In this document: one piece after another, positions 44,599 to 56,343 of the stretch | Numbering within the stretch: the first letter of the stretch is position 1 | How the letters are laid out: each line of letters opens with the position of its first letter | Assembly (NCBI GenBank): GCA_036001465.1 | Contig: DASYUH010000013.1 | Location: 1-64,000 of the forward strand | Length of the DNA stretch: 64,000 nucleotides | Direction: 5' to 3' | DNA from: Candidatus Polarisedimenticolia bacterium | GTDB lineage: Bacteria; Acidobacteriota; Polarisedimenticolia; Gp22-AA2 | The notes under the pieces: generated by a model | What the model saw: only the letters and a program-made list of their open reading frames with translations | What the model was told of the DNA's origin: nothing | Database searches by the model: none | Made by a program: the position numbers and the translations under genes

Positions 44599-45513
44599 TC
44601 ACCGGTGCATCCTAGCAGACGGACGCATGGAGCGCTCGCGCCGCGCCAGGCGGGCGCGGAACCTCGCCGCGCGGCGGAAGTCCCGCGCCAGTCCTCGCCC
44701 CATCCGAAGTCGGAGCCGCCGCAGCTCGCGGATGAAATCATCCAGGGCCGCGGTGGCGGCGGAGCGATTGGACCTCAGGATGGCGTCCCACAGCCCGGGA
44801 GGACTCGAAGCAAGCCGGCTCATCTGCCGGAAGGCCGGTCCGGAGAATTCCAGGAGCGGGCCTGCGGGCGAGGCGGCGGCGGCGTTCACCAGGGCCACGC
44901 TGATGAGCTGCGGCAGGTGGCTCAGGCGCGCCATGGCCTCGTCGTGGCGGCGCGCGTCGAGCCGTGCCGGGCGGGCCCCCAGGAGCTCGACCAGGCTGGC
45001 GAGCCGCCCGAGAGCCTCCGCCTTCGGCCCGCCCTGTCCGCGCGCCGCCCCGGGGCAGAGGATCCAGGGCGCTCCCCGGAAGAGAGACGCATCGGCGCTC
45101 CGGATCCCTGAACGCTCGGAGCCGGCCATCGGATGTCCGCCGACGAACCGATTGGCCAGGCCGAGCCGGCGGGCGGCGCCGAGGATTTCTCCCTTGGTGC
45201 TCCCCACGTCGGTGATCAGGGCGCGAGGCCCCGCGAGGCGCGCCACACGGGGCAGCGTCTTCATGATGCCGTCCACCGGCAGGGCGAGCAACACCAGGTC
45301 GGCGCCTCGCAGGCCCCGGACAAGCGAGGGGGTCGATTCGTCTACCGCCCCCCTGAGGCGCGCCGCCCGAAGCACGGCGGGCCGGTCGATTCCGACGACC
45401 TGCACGCGGGGCACCTGCCGCCGCATCGCCAGGCCGATCGACCCGCCGATCAGGCCGACCCCGACGATGGCGACCCGACGGAAGGGGGCCCTGCCGCGGA
45501 CCTCATGCCTCAA
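44599..45513 (-). CDS. tyrA: Prephenate dehydrogenase
   Basis: The 304-residue enzyme oxidises prephenate (or arogenate) towards tyrosine. The N-terminal Rossmann motif [17 protein letters not shown] binds NAD(P). [11 protein letters not shown] and [12 protein letters not shown] are the conserved substrate and catalytic segments; [10 protein letters not shown] lies in the helical dimer domain. No fused mutase or ACT domain is present; the mutase is a separate gene two positions upstream. The ATG overlaps the DAHP synthase stop (ATGA). Confidence 0.93.
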
Positions 45514-46526
45514 ATCGACCGCCCGATCGCCGGCGCGATGATACGCAGCTGCGCCATGAGCTCGGCGAACTGCTCCGGATAGATCGATTGCGGGCCGTCC
45601 GACAGGGCCGCCTCCGGCTCGTGGTGCACCTCGACCATGATGCCGTCGGCTCCGGCGGCCACGGCGGCGCGCGCCATGGGAATGACCTTGTCACGCAACC
45701 CGGTGCCGTGGCTGGGATCGGCGACGATCGGCAGGTGGCTCAGCTTCTTGATGATCGGGATGGCCGAGATGTCCATGGTGTTGCGGGTGTAGTTCTCGAA
45801 CGTCCGGATGCCGCGCTCGCACAGCATGACGTCCCGGTTGCCGCCCGCCATGATGTATTCCGCCGACAGCAGCCACTCCTGGATCGTGGCCGACAGGCCG
45901 CGCTTCAGCATGACCGGCTTCTTCTGCCGGCCGAGCTCCTTCAGGAGGTTGAAGTTCTGCATGTTGCGCGCCCCCACCTGGAGGATGTCCGTGCAGGCGG
46001 CCACCTGCTCGACTTGGTTGGTGTCCATGACCTCGGTGACCACGTAGAGACCGTGCCGGTCCGCGACCGTCCGGAGGTGCCTGAGCCCCTCCACGCCGAG
46101 CCCCTGGAAGGCGTACGGGGAGGTGCGCGGCTTGAAGGCGCCGCCGCGCAGGATGCGCGCGCCATACCGCCTCACGGAGCTGGCGATGATGTCGAGCTGC
46201 TTCTCGCTCTCCACCGCGCACGGTCCGGCCATCATGATGATGTCGCGTCCGCCAATCGCCACGTCGCCGATCCGGATCACCGTGTCCTCGGGCTGGAAGG
46301 TGCGCCCGGCCAGCTTGTAGGGCTCGGTGATCTTCACCACCTCCTGGACGCCCGGCATGATCTCGAATTCCCTGGGATCGAGGGGCGTCCGGCTCGCTCC
46401 CACCACGCCGATCACCGTCCGCGTGGAGCCGGTCGAGCGGTGAGCGTCGTATCCCTTCTGCGTCAAGGAGGCAATCACCTTCTCGATCTGGTCCTCGCTG
46501 GCGTGCCCGTTCATCACAATCACCAT
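45510..46526 (-). CDS. aroF: 3-deoxy-7-phosphoheptulonate synthase (KDO8P-type, with N-terminal regulatory domain)
   Basis: The 338-residue enzyme condenses phosphoenolpyruvate and erythrose 4-phosphate in the first shikimate-pathway step. An N-terminal ferredoxin-like domain (about 1-70, [18 protein letters not shown]) is the kind that confers feedback control in Thermotoga-type DAHP synthases. The barrel shows [38 protein letters not shown] and PSHGTG. It lies 46 bp downstream of the chorismate mutase gene and overlaps tyrA by 4 bp. Confidence 0.95.
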
Positions 46527-46572
46527 GGGCGTGTCCTCGCTCCTCCTGATTCCCGGTGTCCCGGAAGCCGAT

Positions 46573-46971
46573 TCAGTCCTTCGGATCTCCGGGGTCTCCC
46601 GGCCCGCCGGGCGCGCTTCGACCGGGGGGCGCGGCGCCGCTTCCGTCCGTCACCATGCGCTCGATCCGTCGCGACTCGTCGATGATCCGCTCGAACAGCC
46701 TGCGCAACGCCTCGGACTGGAGAGGTCCGCCGTTCGTCCGCTGGACGTTGCCCAGGACCTCTTCCTCCCTCGCAGGCTGGTAGATCGGCAGGCCGCGCTC
46801 CTGCTTGATGCGGCCGAGCGCGATGGCGCAGCCGGCGCGATCGTTCAGGAGCCGCACCATTCTCCGGTCGATCGCATCGATCCGGCGGCGCAGATCGTCC
46901 ATCGCGTCGGGCCGTCCTCCCCCGGCCGCCCCCGATTTCGATGGGCTCCTCACACCGCGTCGTCCCGCCAT
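46573..46971 (-). CDS. AroQ-class chorismate mutase, stand-alone
   Basis: The 132-residue protein has an all-helical AroQ domain (about 24-105): [33 protein letters not shown] and a final helix [13 protein letters not shown]. It turns chorismate into prephenate for Phe and Tyr. A basic N-terminus of about 20 residues and a Pro/Gly-rich tail of about 25 flank the domain. The ATG at 46971 is 4 bp past the trpA stop; an internal ATG at the domain start is also possible. Placement after trpA joins the Trp branch to the Tyr/Phe branch in one transcript. Confidence 0.88.
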
Positions 46972-46975
46972 GTCC

Positions 46976-47797
46976 TCAGGTCCCCAGGGGGGCCGACAGA
47001 GAGCGGCAGAACGCCTCGACCCGGTCCTCGAGATCGGGGGACGTGGCGTTCTCCTCCACCAGGCGGACGAGGGCGCTGCCGACCACGACCCCGTCCGCGA
47101 AGGATGCGATCGATCGGACCTGGTCAGGTCGGCCGATCCCGAACCCCACCGCGATCGGCAGCCGGGATGCCTGGCGGGCGGCGCGCACCTGGTCGGCCAG
47201 GCCGGCAGGAAGGTCGTCGGACACTCCCGTGACTCCGGTGCGCGAAATGAAGTAGATGAAGCCGCCGGACAGGGCGCCCACCGACTGCACCCTCTCGGGC
47301 GAGGAGGTCGGCGACAGGAGGCCGACGAGATCGATCCCCGCCTCCCCCAGCGCGCCGCGCAGATCGTCAGCCTCGTCCAGCGGCAGATCGGTGACCAGGA
47401 CGCCATCGACCCCCGAGCGCCCGGCCTCGAGCGCGAACGGCCCGACCCCCATGCGGTGCACGGGATTGTAGTAGGTGAACAACACGACGGGTGGCCCACC
47501 GTCCCGGCGCACCTCGGCCGCCAGTCCCAGGCAGGAGCGCAACGTCACGCCGTTCCGGAGCGCTCGCTCCGCCGCCCGCTGGTTGACCGGTCCGTCCGCG
47601 ATCGGATCGGAGAACGGCACCCCGATCTCCAACAGATCCGCGCCGCCGCGCTGGAGCGCTCCGGCCAGACGGCGGGTGGTGGGAAGGTCCGGATCGCCCG
47701 CCGTGACGTACGGAATCAGGGCGCAACGCCCGCGGCTGCGCGCCGCCGCGAAGGCGGCGGCGATCCGGCCTGCGGCCCTGCCCGGATTCCGGCTCAC
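46976..47797 (-). CDS. trpA: Tryptophan synthase alpha subunit
   Basis: The 273-residue TIM barrel cleaves indole-3-glycerol phosphate to indole. The catalytic Glu lies in [17 protein letters not shown] and the catalytic Asp in [15 protein letters not shown]; loop residues [10 protein letters not shown] are conserved. The start is a GTG at 47797 that overlaps the trpB stop (GTGA), so alpha and beta subunits are translationally coupled. Confidence 0.97.
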
Positions 47798-48996
47798 AGC
47801 CCGCCCGCCTCCTCCCCTTCCCGGCGCGCCACCTGGGCGACGTCCTTGTCGCCGCGGCCGGACAGGTTGACGATGACCCGCGCTCCCAGGCGCCCATCCG
47901 CGCCTTCGCGCAGGAGCCACGCGACCGCGTGCGCCGACTCCAGCGCCGGGATGATCCCCTCCAGCTCGGCCAGGCCGTGGAACGCGGCAAGCGCCTCCTC
48001 GTCCGAGACATGCGTGTAGGTGGCGCGCCCCGTGTCGCGCAGGTGCGCGTGCTCCGGACCGACGGCAGCGTAGTCCAGGCCCGCCGAGATCGAGTGGGTC
48101 CCGACGATGTTCCCATCCTCGTCCTGGAGGAGAAAGGTCCGCGTCCCGTGCAGGACTCCGACGCTGCCGCCGGCGAAACGGGCGGCGTGGCACCCGGGCT
48201 CGAGTCCCGCGCCCCCCGCCTCGACTCCGATGAGGCGCACATCCCGATCGTCCAGGAAGGCGTGGAACAGCCCGATCGAATTGCTGCCTCCTCCGACGCA
48301 GGCGATGAGGGCGTCCGGCAAGACCCCCTCGGCCTCCAGGATCTGCAGGCGCGCCTCGTGGCCGATGACCGACTGGAAGTCCCGCACCATGGCCGGGTAC
48401 GGGTGGGCACCGAGGACCGAGCCGAGGACGTAGTGCGTGTCACGGACGTTCGTCACCCAGTCGCGCATCGCCTCGCTGATGGCGTCCTTGAGCGTGCGGC
48501 TCCCGGCGCCGACGGGCCTCACCTCCGCACCGAGCAGCTTCATCCGGTAGACGTTGAGCGCCTGCCGTCGCATGTCCTCCTCGCCCATGTAGATGGCGCA
48601 GCGCATGCGGAACAGGGCCGCCACCGTGGCGGTGGCGACGCCGTGCTGACCGGCGCCGGTCTCGGCGATGATGCGCGCCTTCCCCATGCGGCGCGCCAGC
48701 AGGGCCTGGCCTATCGTGTTGTTGATCTTGTGCGCCCCCGTGTGCGCCAGGTCTTCGCGCTTCAGGTAGACCCGCGTCCTCCCCCCGAGGCGGGCCGCCA
48801 GGTTGTCGGCCCGATACAGGGGAGTCGGCCTCCCGGCGTAGGTTTTCAGATAGTGATCGAGCTCCCTGTGGAAGCCCGCGTCGGTTCGTGCGGCCTTCCA
48901 GGCCGACTCGAGCTCGAGAAGCGGGCTCATCAGCGTCTCGGGAACGTAGCGCCCGCCGTAGGGACCGAACCGTCCTCGATCGTCGGGGGTCTTCAT
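47794..48996 (-). CDS. trpB: Tryptophan synthase beta subunit
   Basis: The 400-residue PLP enzyme joins indole and serine. The cofactor Lys lies in [36 protein letters not shown] and the phosphate-binding [14 protein letters not shown] are intact, and the N-terminus [14 protein letters not shown] is canonical for TrpB1. The ATG overlaps the trpF stop (ATGA) and its own stop overlaps trpA (GTGA). Confidence 0.98.
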
Positions 48997-49631
48997 GCCC
49001 GGCTCTCCGCAGCCTCTGCCGCCCGGTGCACGCGGCTCATGAATTCGGCCAGGAGCCGGCGGTCCTTGCGCCCGGGGGCGCTCTCGACACCGCTGTTGAC
49101 ATCCACGGCGTACGGACGGGCCGCGGCGATCGCGGCGGCCACGTTGTCCGGTGTGAGCCCCCCCGCCAGGATCACCCGACCGTAGGCCGACACCTGGCGC
49201 GCGACGCTCCAGTCGAACGTCATTCCGGTCCCGCCCCGTCTGCCGGGCTGGTGGGCGTCGAGAAGCGAGGCACCGCAGCGATAGAGCCGCACCGACTCGG
49301 GCCTGAACTCGGGGCCGACCCGGTGCGCCTTGTACCACGGAAAGGCGATCCCCTGGCACGCCTCAGGCGGCTCGTCGCCATGCAGCTGCAGGCAGTTGAG
49401 CCCCGCGAGCAGGGCGGTCCCCTCCATGACCGCCGGCAGCTCGTCCGCGAACACGCCCACGCGGGTCACGAAAGGCGGGAGGGCCGCGCAGATATCCCGC
49501 GCCCGGTCGGCCGTGATGCGCCGGGGACTTCCTTCGACGAAATTGAAGCCGAAGGCGTCGACTCCCAGCTCGAGCGCCACCAGGGCGTCCTCCAACCGGG
49601 TGATGCCGCACAGCTTGACGCGCATGCTCAC
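48993..49631 (-). CDS. trpF: Phosphoribosylanthranilate isomerase
   Basis: The 212-residue barrel isomerises phosphoribosylanthranilate. Catalytic Cys is in [12 protein letters not shown] and Asp in [24 protein letters not shown] and [10 protein letters not shown] are typical. The start is a GTG (49631) that overlaps the trpC stop. It is a separate gene here, not fused to trpC. Confidence 0.96.
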
Positions 49632-50413
49632 GGCGGCCCCCCGATCAGGGTCCGCAGCGCCTCGCCCGGATCCGCCTCCCGCATCAGCCGCTCGCCGACC
49701 AGGACGGCGTGATACCCCGCGGCGCGCAACCGTTCGATGTCCTGAGGCGACTCGATCCCGCTCTCGCTGACCCTCAGGATCCCATCGGGCAGGCGCGGAG
49801 CGATGCGCAGGGAGTTTTCGATCGAGACCGTCATGGTCGCCAGGTCGCGGTTGTTCACGCCGATGAGCGCCGCCCCCGCGCCGAGCGCCCGGTCCGCCTC
49901 GTCCTCCGAGTGCACCTCCACCAGGGGCTCCATGTGGAGCGAGCGCGCCACGCCGATCAGGGTCCCCAGCTCCCTGGAGGTGAGGATGCGCGCGATCAGC
50001 AGGATCGAATCGGCTCCGAGCACGCGGCTCTCGTAGACCTGGTACTCCTCAAGGATGAAATCCTTCCTCAGGATGGGCACCGAGACCGCCCGCTTCGCCT
50101 GGCCGAGGTGCTCGGGCGCGCCGAGGAAGAACCCCGCCTCGGTGAGCACCGAGAGAGCCGCCGCTCCGGCCTGCTCGTAGACTGCGGCGATCCTGGCCAC
50201 GTCGGCGCCGGGCTTGATGTCCCCCTTCGACGGCGAGGCGCGCTTGATCTCCGCGATGATGGAGACGCTCCCCGGGCGGCGCAGCGCCTGCGGGAGATCG
50301 CGCGGCGGCAGCGCCGTCGTGGCCAGCTCGATCATGCGCCGCACCGGTGACTCGGCCTTGTCGCGCGCGATCTGCGCGCGCTTGGCCTGCACGATCTTCT
50401 CCAGAATGTCCAT
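49628..50413 (-). CDS. trpC: Indole-3-glycerol phosphate synthase
   Basis: The 261-residue barrel closes the indole ring. Catalytic lysines are in IIAEIKRASPSKGDI and PILRKDFILEEYQV; the phosphate-binding regions GVNNRDL and VSESGIES are conserved. The ATG at 50413 is one base past the trpD stop; the gene overlaps trpF at the end (GTGA). Confidence 0.97.
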   Translation of the reverse strand: MDILEKIVQAKRAQIARDKAESPVRRMIELATTALPPRDLPQALRRPGSVSIIAEIKRASPSKGDIKPGADVARIAAVYEQAGAAALSVLTEAGFFLGAPEHLGQAKRAVSVPILRKDFILEEYQVYESRVLGADSILLIARILTSRELGTLIGVARSLHMEPLVEVHSEDEADRALGAGAALIGVNNRDLATMTVSIENSLRIAPRLPDGILRVSESGIESPQDIERLRAAGYHAVLVGERLMREADPGEALRTLIGGPP

Positions 50414-50414
50414 G

Positions 50415-51442
50415 TCATCCCTCCGGCCGGCAGATGGCGCGCAGGTTCTCGACGATGCGCCGCGCTCCGCCCGAATCGATTGCGCCGGCCGCCAGCGCGA
50501 CTCCCTCCCGCAGATCCCCGGCCCGGCCGGCCACGAGGAGCGCCGCCGCGGCGTTGATCAGGACCACGTCGCGGCGCGGCCCGCGCTCGCCATCCAGGAC
50601 GCCCCGGGCGATCGAGACATTGCGCCGCACGTCCCCCCCGCCCAGATCCTCCAGGCTGGCGCGGCCGAGTCCCGCGTCCTCCGGCTCGAGGCTTCCGAGA
50701 ACCACGCGGCCGTCTCGCAGCTCCGCGAACCGGGTGGTCGCGTGCAGCGTGATCTCGTCCAGGCCGCCGCCGTGCACGACCAGCGCGCGTTCCGATCCGA
50801 GCTCCCTCAGGACCTCGGCCACCTGACCCAGCCGCGCGGGATCGAACACGCCCAGCAGCTGGTGCCTCGCCCCGGCCGGATTGATCAGGGGCCCCAGGAG
50901 ATTGAACACCGTGCGCACGCCCATCTCGCGGCGCACCGGAGCCGCGTGGCGCATCGCCTCGTGCAGGGCCGGCGCGTAGAGAAAGCCGATTCCGACCTCC
51001 TCGAGGCAGCGCTCGACGGCGGACACCGGCACGTCCACCTTGATGCCCAGCCCTTCCAGCAGGTCGGCGCTGCCGCAGCGGCTGCTCACGGAGCGATTGC
51101 CGTGCTTCGCGACCACGACACCCGCGGCCGCCACGACGAAGGCGGCCAGCGTGCTGATGTTGAAGGTCCCTGCACCGTCCCCGCCCGTCCCGCAGGTGTC
51201 CAGGATCACCCGGGCGCCGCAGCGCACCCGCGTGGCCCGCGCCCGCATGACCCGCGCGAATGCGGCGATCTCCGAGACCGTCTCGCCGCGCATGCGGAGC
51301 GCAACGAGGAAGGCCGCGAGGCGCGCCGGCGCGACCCGGCCGTCCATGATCGCCTCGAAGGAGGCGACCGCCTCGTCGTCCGAGAGGCCGCCCCCCTCCA
51401 CCACGCGCGCCAGGACCGCCTGCACCGCGTCACCGCCGTCCA

Positions 51443-51446
<4 letters not shown>
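50415..51446 (-). CDS. trpD: Anthranilate phosphoribosyltransferase
   Basis: The protein has 343 residues. It transfers phosphoribosyl from PRPP to anthranilate. The PRPP motif DTCGTGGDGAGTFNIST and KHGNRSVSSRCGSADLLE are intact, as is NLLGPLINPAG. The ATG at 51446 overlaps the trpG TGA (ATGA) in the style of this operon; another ATG three codons upstream is possible. Confidence 0.97.
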
Positions 51447-52014
<568 letters not shown>

Positions 52015-52018
<4 letters not shown>

Positions 52019-53484
52019 GCCTGCGCCTCCGCCCGCTCGATCGCCTCGATCAGCGCCCCGGCCTTGCTCAGGCACTCGCGGTGCTCCGACGCCGGGTTCG
52101 AGTCGGCGACGATGCCGGCCCCCGCCTGGACGTGAGCCACGCCCCGGGCCATGACCGTGGTCCGGATGGTGATGCAGGAGTCCAGGTTCCCGGAGTAGTC
52201 GATGTACCCCACCGCCCCCGCATACGGCCCGCGACGCGTCGTTTCGAGCTCCTCGATGATTTCCATGGCGCGCACCTTGGGGGCGCCGGACACCGTGCCG
52301 GCCGGGAAACAGGCGATCAGCCCGTCGAAGGCGTCCTGCCCCGGGCGCAGCCTCCCGGAGACCTCCGAGACCAGGTGCATGACGTGCGAGAAGCGCTCCA
52401 CCGCCATGAAACGCGTGACTGCGATGCTCCCCGCACGGCTGACACGCCCGAGGTCGTTCCGCCCCAGGTCCACCAGCATGACGTGCTCGGCCCTCTCCTT
52501 CGGGTCTGCCAGAAGGTCCTCCTCCTGCCGCCGGTCCTCCTCGTCGTCGCGGCCGCGCGGTCGCGTGCCGGCGATCGGCCGCGTCTGGATGCGGTCCCCC
52601 TCGACCCGGACCAGCATCTCGGGGGAGGCCCCCGCCAGGCTGACCTCGCCGAAGTCCAGGTAGTACATGTACGGCGACGGGTTGATGCGGCGCAACGCCC
52701 GGTAGATGGAGAAGGGAGAGGCGGCCGCCCGGCGCTCGAAGCGCTGCGACAGCACGACCTGGAAGATGTCGCCGGCGCGGATGTAGTCCTTCGCCCGATC
52801 GACGCCTTCCTTGTACCGCGCCGGCGACACGTTCGACCTCCAGCGATCGCGGCTCCGTATCCTGCGCTGCTCGGGCGGCGCGGGCCGGCGGAGGAGGCGT
52901 TCGATCGCCTCGATCGTGCGCCGTGCCGCGCGGTACCTGTCGAGAAGGGCACCCGGCCCGAGCCGGCGCCCGTTCTCCTCGGTCTTGATGTTGGAGACAA
53001 TCTGGATCCGCTGCCTCAGGTGGTCGAAGGCCAGCACCGTGTCGTAGATCCCGAACAGGATGTCTGGAACCCGCAGGTCGTCCTCGACCCCGCACGGCAG
53101 GCGCTCCACCAGGCGGGCCACGTCGTACGACAGGTACCCGACGGCACCGCCGGTGAAGCGCGGCAGGTCCGGGAAGCGGACCGGACGATGCCGCGCCATC
53201 GCCCGCCGGAGCGCCAGAAGCGGCGGCCCGCCGTCCCCGTCCATCCCGACCGTGGCGCGCACGACGGCGGAGGGGTCGCGCCCCAGGAACGAGTAGCGGG
53301 CGATCGCCTCCCCCCCCTCCACCGATTCGAGCAGGAACGGCTGGCGGGCGCCGCGCGCCAGGCGCAGGAACGCCGCCACGGGGGTGAGCAGATCGGCGCC
53401 GACCTCCCGGCAGAGTGGAATGACGTTGCCCTGGCGCGCCAGCTCCGCGAGGTCCCCCGGATGGATGTTGAACCCGTCCTTCAC
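52015..53484 (-). CDS. trpE: Anthranilate synthase component I
   Basis: The 489-residue enzyme makes anthranilate from chorismate. The chorismate-binding half has FQVVLSQRFE, RPIAGTRPRG and GTVSGAPKVRAMEI; the N-terminal half carries the LLESVEGG region used for tryptophan feedback in this family. The start is a GTG at 53484 overlapping the stop of the upstream lipoprotein gene (GTGA), so its translation is coupled to that gene. Confidence 0.97.
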
Positions 53485-54167
53485 GGCTTCTCCTCGTCGT
53501 CCTTGTCCTTCTCGAGGATCCCGAGCGTGCGCGGCACCTCGAACACCACCTGGATCGGCTCGTCGATCTCCTTCACCTTGAAGAGCAGGCGCAGCGGCAC
53601 GCCGTTCAGCCCGGACTCCGGGATCGGGAAGTAGATCACGTCCTCCATGAAGCCGTGGGGAGGCAGAATCAACTGCTCGATCAGGAGCGACCGCCTGGCC
53701 GAGGACGGATAGAAATCGCTCGGGATGTGGGTCATCAGGCCGACCCCGGTCGCCGTGAACTGGCGGTTCTGCACGAACAGCCGGCGGTCGAGATCGAGCC
53801 GCCCGTAGTTCTCGGCCACCTCCCGCGCCGGGGCGATCGAGTATTGCCGGCCGAGAGGATCCTCCAGCGTGAACGCCTCCCGCGTGATGGTGAACGTGAC
53901 CTTCGACTTGTTGCCGACCTGCACGAAGAGGGGAAAGTACGCTTCCTTCCGGATGAAGCGGGCGCCCTCCACCCCGACCACCAGGCTCGCCAAGCTGCCG
54001 TCTTCCTTGTAATTGAACGCGCTCAGCTTGTCGCTGTACGGAGAGACCACGTTCGGGTTGCGCTCGAGGGACATGCAACCTCCGCAACCGGCCGCCATGG
54101 CGGCGACCACGATCAGCCTGATGACTCCGACTCCCGCGATCCTCTGCATCATCGTCAGCCTCTTCAT
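53481..54167 (-). CDS. Predicted lipoprotein, first structural gene of the trp operon
   Basis: The 228-residue protein has a signal sequence with lipobox-like MAAGC (Cys28) followed by GGC. The mature part is beta-rich (ARFIRKEAYFPLFVQVGNKS, VTFTITREAFTLEDPLG) and suggests an Ig-like or DUF-type periplasmic domain; I do not recognise a family. The ATG follows GGGAGG. Its stop overlaps the trpE GTG, so it is co-transcribed and translationally coupled with tryptophan biosynthesis, although nothing in its sequence suggests an enzyme of that pathway. Confidence 0.78.
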   Translation of the reverse strand: MKRLTMMQRIAGVGVIRLIVVAAMAAGCGGCMSLERNPNVVSPYSDKLSAFNYKEDGSLASLVVGVEGARFIRKEAYFPLFVQVGNKSKVTFTITREAFTLEDPLGRQYSIAPAREVAENYGRLDLDRRLFVQNRQFTATGVGLMTHIPSDFYPSSARRSLLIEQLILPPHGFMEDVIYFPIPESGLNGVPLRLLFKVKEIDEPIQVVFEVPRTLGILEKDKDDEEKP

Positions 54168-54208: not shown

Positions 54209-54283
54209 CCGGCCGCAGGACGGACGAACTCCCGCGCGGCCGGCGCCTTCCGGAAAGGACGGGACAGCGAGGGCCCCGCCGGC
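54209..54283 (-). promoter_or_regulatory. Attenuator-like leader RNA of the trp operon (mutually exclusive stems)
   Basis: Between the leader peptide stop and the lipoprotein gene, GCCGGCG (54283-54277) can pair with CGCCGGC (54245-54239). Alternatively CCGGCCGC (54243-54236) can pair with GCGGCCGG (54216-54209). The two stems use the same middle segment and exclude each other. No U-tract follows, so a classic terminator is not evident. Confidence 0.45.
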
Positions 54284-54290
54284 TCTCCGG

Positions 54291-54407
54291 TCAGCGCCAC
54301 CAAAAGTAGTGGTTTGTATGGTGGAACAGGGGGTTGTGACGGGGCGGCGCCGTCTCGCGGAGCGCGAGGTCCACAAAGTCGTCCTCGCCGATGGGCCGGG
54401 CGTGCAA
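54291..54407 (-). CDS. trpL: trp operon leader peptide with tandem Trp codons
   Basis: The 38-codon reading frame starts at TTG (54407), 7 nt after a GGGAG ribosome-binding site and about 23 nt after the predicted transcription start. It ends ...FHHTNHYFWWR then TGA. Two adjacent UGG codons, with Tyr and Phe codons just before and several His codons, lie next to the stop, the arrangement expected of a ribosome-stalling sensor. The following 120 nt can form mutually exclusive hairpins. It precedes a transcript coding for trpE-A, chorismate mutase, DAHP synthase and tyrA. The peptide is longer than the usual 14-25 residues; the start codon is inferred. Confidence 0.65.
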   Translation of the reverse strand: MHARPIGEDDFVDLALRETAPPRHNPLFHHTNHYFWWR

Positions 54408-54435
54408 GGCGGTTCTCCCGAAAAACGGCCCGGCT

Positions 54436-54464
54436 ACTCTAGTACAGCCATCCGGGAGTGTCAA
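54436..54464 (-). promoter_or_regulatory. Promoter of the trp operon
   Basis: On the minus strand a perfect TTGACA (54464-54459), a 17-bp spacer and TAGAGT (54441-54436, 4/6) predict transcription start near 54430, leaving a leader of about 263 nt before the first structural gene. Confidence 0.68.
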
Positions 54465-54492
54465 TCGCGCACCGGCGCAAGGCCTTCTTAGC

Positions 54493-54611
54493 CACCGGTG
54501 GCGGGGCGCAGCGCGGGGCGGCTCATGCTCGGCGACGGGATCGTCCAGCTCGCCCGGGCTCCGCGACTTGCCTCGAAATCGCCGCCCCGCGCTGCGCCCC
54601 GCCACCTGTGG
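54493..54611. repeat. Inverted-repeat element A (31-bp arms)
   Basis: The arm at 54493-54523 (starting ccaccggtggcggggcgcag) is the reverse complement of 54581-54611 with one mismatch; the spacer is 57 bp. The left spacer and reversed right spacer share cgatttcgag and gagcatgag with element B. It has no transposase and no reading frame that looks coding; it is MITE- or REP-like. Confidence 0.65.
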
Positions 54612-54717
54612 TTACGGATGCCTCGCTCCGTCACGCGGAATGGCTCCCCCGTTTCGCTGCGGCCGACAGCCGAGCCGCTCTCGGGTCGATGCGTGGAGAA
54701 AATCCAAGAGGTGCGTC

Positions 54718-54838
54718 GCGGGCCGGAGCGGGGCGGCGCGGCGTGCCGATTTCGAGCCGCGCCATGCGTGACACCTGGAATCAAGATGACCTTCGCGAGC
54801 GAGCATGAGGCGCGCCGCGCCGCCCCGCTCCGGCCCGC
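54718..54838. repeat. Inverted-repeat element B (26-bp perfect arms)
   Basis: The arm at 54718-54743 (gcgggccggagcggggcggc...) is an exact reverse complement of 54813-54838; the spacer is 69 bp and includes cgatttcgagccgcg (54747-54761), also present at 25477-25491, and gagcatgag, shared with element A. It lies just past the aroDE stop. Confidence 0.65.
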
Positions 54839-54858
54839 AACTCGCAACAGGGAAGGTC

Positions 54859-56343
54859 TCAGCGCCGTCGGCGCCGCGAGGGCGGGGATGGCAGGCCGGC
54901 GAGCGCGGCGCGCCGCATCACCTCGAGGGGCGCCCGCCTGCCCGTGAACAGCTCGAACTGCGCGGCCGCCTGGGCGACGAACATCTCGAGCCCGTCGATG
55001 ACTACGAGGCCGCGGGCCCGCGCCTCCCTCAGGAGACGGGTCTCGGGAGGGTTGTAGATGATGTCGTAGACCACGGGAGCCGCGATCCAGGTTCCGGGAA
55101 TCGGCGTGCGATCGATCTCCGGCGCCAGCCCGACGGACGTGGCGTTGATCAGGAGATCCGCATCGAACCCGCGCAGGCGGGCCCAGGGCAGGTGCCGTAC
55201 CTGAAGCGCGCGGGCCAGATCGCGGGCCCGCGAGGGAGTGCGGTTGAACAGGGTCACGCGCGCGCCCTCCGCCACGAGTCCATGGACCAGCGCCCGCGCG
55301 GCGCCTCCGGCCCCCATCACCGCCACGCGCAGTCCCTGGAGCGTCAGGCGGGATCGAAGCGGCGCCACGGCCGCCTCGACATCGGTGTTGAAGCCTTCGA
55401 GGCGGTTCCAGATCTTGACGACGGTATTGACCGCGCCGATCCGCCGGGCCGGCCCGTCCAGGGCGTCGAGGTGGGGCAGAATCGCCTCCTTGTGAGGCAG
55501 CGTGACGCTCAACCCGCAGATCCGCATCTCGCTCAGAATCGGCAGGAACTCCGCCATCGTCCTGGCCTCGAGCGGCAGGTACCTGTAGTCCAGATCGAGG
55601 GCCCCGAGAGCCGCATTGTGGACGCGCGGCGACAGCGAGTGGCCGATGGGGAAGCCGAGAACACCCAGGAGGCGCGTGCCGGGCCCGATGCGGTCGAAGC
55701 GGTACAGGTCGAAGAGGTCCTCGAGCGGGACCTGGCCCGGCGCGCTGTCGGCGGTCCCGCGCGCCGGGGCATAGAGCGCCGCCGATCCCCACAGAGGGGC
55801 CAGGATGCGGCTGGGGATCCCCCTTCCGCCCATGCAGAAGGCGATCAGGGTGCCCGGGGTCGCCGAACGCAACAGGTCCCTCATCCGGAGGAGGTCGCTG
55901 GCGGCGTCGGCGAACGTGACGATCTTCAGGAGCGCCTCGCCCGCGGACTGGCGCATCTCCCGGTGCAGCGCCTGCAGGTCGGCCGGAGTTCCGTTGAAGT
56001 CGTGGTAGGACAGGATCCGTCGCGCCCGGCCGCGCCCCTTCATCAGCACCTGGTCCGGATCGCCGAACTCCAGATCGATGTACTCGACCCCGGCCTGGAG
56101 CGCCCTCCGCAGCAGGGGCTCACGCTCCGAGGGACGCGCCCCGCCTCCCTGCTGGCGGCTGCGGACCGTGGCGAGCTTCGGCTTGCCCTGGAGGGCGAGC
56201 AGCCGATCGAGGTCGAGGTCCCGGACGAGATCCAGGCGGAGCTCGACGACGTCGGCCCGCGGATCCGCCGCCAGATAGGCGCGCCGCATGGCGTCGGTGG
56301 TGTCGCAGGCGAGGACCTGGATGACCAGGCAGCGCGAGGGCAA
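54859..56343 (-). CDS. aroDE: Bifunctional 3-dehydroquinate dehydratase (type I) / shikimate dehydrogenase
   Basis: The 494-residue protein carries two consecutive shikimate-pathway steps. The N-terminal type I dehydratase (about 1-215) has catalytic His in LSYHDFNGT and Schiff-base Lys in EALLKIVTFA. The C-terminal dehydrogenase (about 220-480) has GFPIGHSLSPRVHNAAL, TLPHKEAILPHLD, GAVNTVV and NADP motif VMGAGGAARALVHGL. Such fusions are known from plants and some bacteria. The start is a TTG at 56343 with GGAG 6 nt upstream. It lies 35 bp past cysK; the Arg-rich tail ends next to inverted-repeat element B. Confidence 0.94.
   Translation of the reverse strand: MPSRCLVIQVLACDTTDAMRRAYLAADPRADVVELRLDLVRDLDLDRLLALQGKPKLATVRSRQQGGGARPSEREPLLRRALQAGVEYIDLEFGDPDQVLMKGRGRARRILSYHDFNGTPADLQALHREMRQSAGEALLKIVTFADAASDLLRMRDLLRSATPGTLIAFCMGGRGIPSRILAPLWGSAALYAPARGTADSAPGQVPLEDLFDLYRFDRIGPGTRLLGVLGFPIGHSLSPRVHNAALGALDLDYRYLPLEARTMAEFLPILSEMRICGLSVTLPHKEAILPHLDALDGPARRIGAVNTVVKIWNRLEGFNTDVEAAVAPLRSRLTLQGLRVAVMGAGGAARALVHGLVAEGARVTLFNRTPSRARDLARALQVRHLPWARLRGFDADLLINATSVGLAPEIDRTPIPGTWIAAPVVYDIIYNPPETRLLREARARGLVVIDGLEMFVAQAAAQFELFTGRRAPLEVMRRAALAGLPSPPSRRRRR

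Follow-up and report, generated by a model that had tools for sequence, protein, structure and literature searches.

A probable U-less trp attenuator with a tandem-Trp leader peptide in one family of Acidobacteriota

Introduction

The trpL leader of E. coli, which lies just 5' of the trp operon, carries a tandem UGG followed by CGC and ends at a stop codon a short distance further on. Trp attenuators in Actinobacteria such as Corynebacterium and Streptomyces contain GC-rich terminators followed by poly-U (PMC1262725). Rho has been proposed to act at the terminator-less cysteine leaders of mycobacteria (PMC1262725), and at E. coli tnaC a ribosome stalled there keeps Rho off the rut site (PMC8429421). 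The literature that we searched, which left out most subscription papers, names no Trp leader in Acidobacteriota; we make no claim to priority.

Here we describe a region upstream of the trp genes in a 64-kb stretch of DNA (the window) from a soil lineage of Acidobacteriota. From its sequence, this region is probably a ribosome-mediated trp attenuator of the Trp-codon type, in a variant without a U-tract.

Results

We compared the window genome (G000) with seven other species genomes of the same family (G001 to G007). The leader comprises the following elements:

54436..54464, minus strand: promoter TTGACA-17-TAGAGT, from a pattern match and an independent consensus scan
54291..54407, minus strand: leader ORF LHARPIGEDDFVDLALRETAPPRHNPLFHHTNHYFWWR, TTG start at 54407, 38 codons plus UGA
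54297..54302, minus strand: tandem Trp codons UGG UGG, then CGC UGA, invariant in 6 genomes

An earlier, sequence-only reading had proposed this promoter, a ribosome-binding site, a TTG start and a 38-codon frame ending in HYFWWR, and both its coordinates and its description hold. The promoter opens with TTGACA at 54464 and, after a 17-nt spacer, closes with TAGAGT ending at 54436; the consensus scan placed it among 3 promoter-like sites in 20 kb, where 0.8 were expected. A Shine-Dalgarno sequence, GGGAGA, lies shortly 5' of the TTG at 54407, and the frame runs to HYFWWR-stop, with TGG TGG CGC TGA ending at 54291. An in-frame GTG at codon 12, with GAGGA 5' of it, was considered as an alternative start and rejected, since neither G005 nor G006 has a start in frame at this position. 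Rfam covariance models returned only 4 tRNAs in the whole window, with no T-box or other element at the leader, and Trp_leader (RF00513) gave no match in the window at the gathering score. A search of the genome showed that TrpR is absent. The N-terminal half of the leader (54390-54345) also contains a GAGG-CCUC-GAGG triple, in which CCUC can pair with either GAGG; this possible pause or switch hairpin is kept in five of the six leaders found (one arm is GGGG in G004).

Downstream of the leader, the gene order is lipoprotein-like gene, trpEGDCFBA, chorismate mutase, DAHP synthase and tyrA:

53481..54167, minus strand: lipoprotein-like gene, 228 aa, no Pfam or NCBIfam match, overlaps the trpE start
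52015..53484, minus strand: trpE, GTG start, TIGR00564 above cut-off
44599..52030, minus strand: trpG, trpD, trpC, trpF, trpB, trpA, chorismate mutase, DAHP synthase, prephenate dehydrogenase

The leader does lie upstream of the trp genes, as first described, but that description passed over the lipoprotein-like gene between leader and trpE. Gene family matches agree with its placement of chorismate mutase, DAHP synthase and TyrA in the same operon. G005 and G006 have an additional peptidase gene separating the leader from the lipoprotein gene, and the leader therefore keeps its form before different first genes. The lipoprotein-like family (homologues L005-L033) often adjoins trpE in the class and has several copies per genome. 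On the other side of the leader, towards aroDE (54466-54865), lie two imperfect palindromes of ~170 nt, which are related to some two dozen other sites in the genome (70-94% identity), forming a dispersed REP/BIME-like repeat that is missing from the aroDE-leader spacer in the relatives seen.

The leader was found 5' of the lipoprotein-trpE genes in G001, G002, G004, G005 and G006, as well as in the window genome. The loci of G003, which has no lipoprotein match and only a trpE-like gene at 47% identity, and of G007, which is 63% complete, were not readable and were left out. In this set of six sequences from one family, 6/6 readable loci keep the promoter, Shine-Dalgarno sequence, GTG or TTG start, frame and WWR-stop, with 55-57 nt between the -35 element and the start codon and a leader of 38-42 codons. 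The C-termini are HYFWWR, FYYWWR, HYHWWR, SYYWWR, SYYWWR and SYCWWR, all encoded with TGG TGG CGC TGA. The sequence-only reading had staked its case on the WW codons and reading frame recurring among relatives, and both recur at every readable locus. Alignment with the related trpE leaders retains its WWR-stop end but neither the Phe residue nor the alternative stems that it had named. A Tyr codon precedes UGG by 1 or 2 codons in 6/6 leaders and Phe is not kept, so that the suggested co-sensing of Phe and Tyr is possible but weak. In G006, the most distant genome, the N-terminus of the leader is almost unrecognisable and the C-terminal end is retained, which indicates that selection acts on the Trp codons.

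A profile search with the peptide in 41 class genomes matched only the five closest family loci (E 7e-23 to 6e-26), and neither this search nor a scan of genome contigs found the leader outside the family. A phylum-wide pattern search for TGGTGGCGCTGA plus promoter was uninformative, as it allowed a gap of 110-140 nt and the real gap is 156 nt.

Elsewhere in the class, we found Trp leaders of a second kind. At 30 trpE loci of the class, short ORFs with WW near the end numbered 15 in sense and 2 in antisense. Ten are leaders of 21-32 codons 5' of a stand-alone trpE (G012, G013, G016, G020, G021, G023, G024, G027, G030 and G033; loci L075, L076, L079-L083 and L085-L087), and in these a GC hairpin with a U-tract follows, directly before trpE. 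The 5' arm of the terminator (usually CCCACCUCC) also complements an in-frame segment 3' of the W-run (usually GGAGGUG); G030 (GAGGCGG) and G016 (CGGATGG) have altered triples that still match. The antiterminator duplex scored clearly above shuffles in only 4/10 of these leaders, and the case for the class type rests on the repeated anatomy together with the changed-but-matching triples. As judged from these features, the ten leaders look like textbook attenuators, and Trp attenuation therefore appears to be at home in the class. A phylum-wide pattern search for this type gave mostly chance matches outside the class, and a reversed control gave similar numbers. G020 has a second WWWW leader at another locus (L133, G020:C119:49809), with the same antiterminator motif.

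Immediately 5' of the Trp codons, the leader of the window is strongly biased in composition:

54303..54347, minus strand: C-rich, G-poor tract, candidate rut; C 0.49, G 0.07; ends at the first Trp codon

Of all 45-nt stretches on the same strand of the 64-kb window, it is one of the two with the strongest C>G bias. It falls short of a full rut site, since a span of 78 nt places the leader no higher than the top 1%. In the six leaders, C-minus-G over the 45 nt 5' of the Trp codons ranges from 0.20 to 0.42 (0.31, 0.36, 0.36, 0.20 and 0.24 in the relatives, the tract being weaker in G005 and G006), compared with -0.13 to 0.27 in the class-type leaders. Such a bias would explain the His, Thr, Asn, Pro and Phe codons of the peptide's tail (CAC, ACA, AAC, CCC and UUC). 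The window genome encodes a full rho on C11 (716 bits). A second Rho-like gene lies at G000:C22:39969-40874 (L106; 454 bits, profile positions 112-413).

The RNA 3' of the Trp codons can adopt competing structures:

54229..54300, minus strand: folding region with helices CCGG:CCGG, CGGCGGG:CCCGYCS and competing YCCCG:CGGGR; no covariation
54209..54243, minus strand: CCGGCCGC...GCGGCCGG hairpin without U-tract; stable (z -2.7), private to the window genome

The two mutually exclusive GC stems originally proposed, GCCGGCG (54283-54277) with CGCCGGC (54245-54239) and CCGGCCGC (54243-54236) with GCGGCCGG (54216-54209), are present and compete for 54243-54239, but neither recurs in the family relatives, whose conserved helices differ. 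In the six sequences, GCGC and CCGG at the leader end can pair with downstream CCGG and GCGC; an inner helix, CGGCGGG:CCCGCCG, lies inside this pairing, and YCCCGG:CGGGAG competes for the same CCGG. The conserved helices keep 83-96% of their pairs across the six sequences. A switch between alternative helices is only plausible, because the pairs are kept but compensatory changes do not exceed chance in the six sequences and folding energies lie within shuffles in the relatives except G001.

These helices suggest attenuation by a terminator hairpin without a U-tract, a possible explanation but one we hold with reserve. The CCGG in YCCCGG would have two alternative partners: an upstream one, the CCGG right after the leader stop, in a pairing that encloses the inner CGGCGGG:CCCGCCG helix, and a downstream one, CGGGAG, with which it would form the terminating hairpin. 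Consistent with this, nearly all six sequences can form the helices (cells paired: 86% and 91%, compared with 33-69% in slid versions), the relatives' MFE folds split into the two alternative states, G005 has AGCCCCUUCC..GGAAGGGGCUUUC further downstream, and the class relatives employ the same logic with a U-tract. The lack of covariation and of better-than-shuffled folding in most sequences speaks against it, as does the lack of a U-tract in the window and in the other relatives, except for a short UUUC in G005. The sequence-only reading had likewise remarked on the missing U-tract, and we confirmed that the window has none from the leader to the first gene. Terminator-like sites in the 20 kb surrounding the operon are not enriched (5 vs 4.8 in shuffles). 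We rank Rho slightly ahead of such a hairpin because of the C-rich tract and the precedents of tnaC and the mycobacterial cysteine leaders.

Control at the level of translation, in which translation of the leader would free or block the ribosome-binding site of the first structural gene, is unlikely. Leader and genes are probably on one transcript, and the mycobacterial cysteine leaders also lack terminators (PMC1262725). However, the first gene varies (lipoprotein or peptidase), conservation extends neither to its Shine-Dalgarno sequence nor to the preceding 60-80 nt, and it stops ~65 nt 3' of the leader stop.

The pattern of substitutions indicates what kind of selection acts on the leader. 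In comparisons of G000, G001 and G004, third positions changed in 3/38, 4/38 and 5/39 leader codons, whereas the rate in the corresponding trpE genes was 0.33-0.35 per codon (Fisher p 0.0003, 0.001 and 0.007), so that third positions change about 3-4 times less in the leader. First and second positions of the leader change at least as much as those of trpE in these genomes, and nonsynonymous changes outnumber synonymous ones. With its third positions frozen relative to trpE, the leader is constrained at the RNA level, retaining its Trp codons and frame, rather than in the manner of an ordinary protein, and this points to a role in cis. That it is a short functional protein, or an ORF that arose by chance, without regulatory function is highly improbable given these changes and the loss of the N-terminus but not of WWR-stop in G006, even though 4/6 leaders conserve the N-terminal half around ARPIGEDDFVDL and a fifth has it in recognisable form.

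Discussion

The window shares with attenuators in general a conserved, short, translatable ORF with regulatory codons before the cognate biosynthetic operon. The GC hairpin with U-tract before the first gene that characterizes classical intrinsic termination is absent from the leader-to-first-gene interval of the window and present in the ten class relatives. Control of the trp operon through Trp codons, as first proposed, is strongly supported by the conserved WWR-stop, frame, start and promoter and by the textbook-like attenuators of the class; since the leader end is conserved in relatives, the cell very probably senses Trp shortage by ribosome stalling there.

In the mechanism that we propose, the leader ORF would be translated during its own transcription. 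A shortage of charged tRNA-Trp would stall the ribosome at UGG-UGG, 2-3 codons before the stop, and the operon would be transcribed; when Trp is plentiful, the ribosome would reach UGA and leave, and transcription would end before the structural genes. The output is likely to be at the level of transcription. Our tentative first choice for this output is that Rho loads on the C-rich tract after the ribosome departs, a Trp-stalled ribosome covering the tract end. We are more doubtful of the stricter proposal that the rut tract is part of the leader ORF itself and that a Trp-starved ribosome at its end blocks Rho, switching the operon on without any terminator hairpin. If Rho is indeed involved, the leader would be a Trp-starvation mirror image of tnaC. 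Together, a class with textbook-like trpE attenuators and one family with the same sensing device, U-less and at another operon head, offer a testable set.

The leader resembles E. coli trpL (Rfam Trp_leader RF00513) in its tandem UGG-CGC, the stop near the Trp codons and the trp operon next to it. It differs in length (38-42 codons in the family vs 14), in its GTG or TTG start, and in having no U-tract and no Rfam match; the operon differs from the E. coli type in its extra aromatic genes and lipoprotein-like gene. The class-type attenuators share with it the class and a W-rich leader 5' of trpE, whereas they have, as a rule, an ATG start, a W-run in mid-ORF, an in-frame antiterminator segment, a U-tract terminator and a stand-alone trpE. 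By these sequence features, the leader of the window's family is of another type, U-less and placed at another operon head. Actinobacterial trp leaders likewise have double or triple UGG in high-GC genomes, but they use poly-U terminators (PMC1262725). The cysteine leader peptides of Mycobacterium are similar in that the codon run is at the ORF end, a terminator hairpin is lacking and Rho has been proposed; they differ in sensing Cys, and their possible Rho-binding motifs are not conserved (PMC1262725), whereas the C-rich tract of the family described here is. E. coli tnaC matches the proposed mechanism in that a stalled ribosome would keep Rho off the rut site, but there the stall occurs at the stop codon with high free Trp and rut lies downstream (PMC8429421). 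In the window, it would be Trp shortage that stalls the ribosome, at a point just downstream of the tract.
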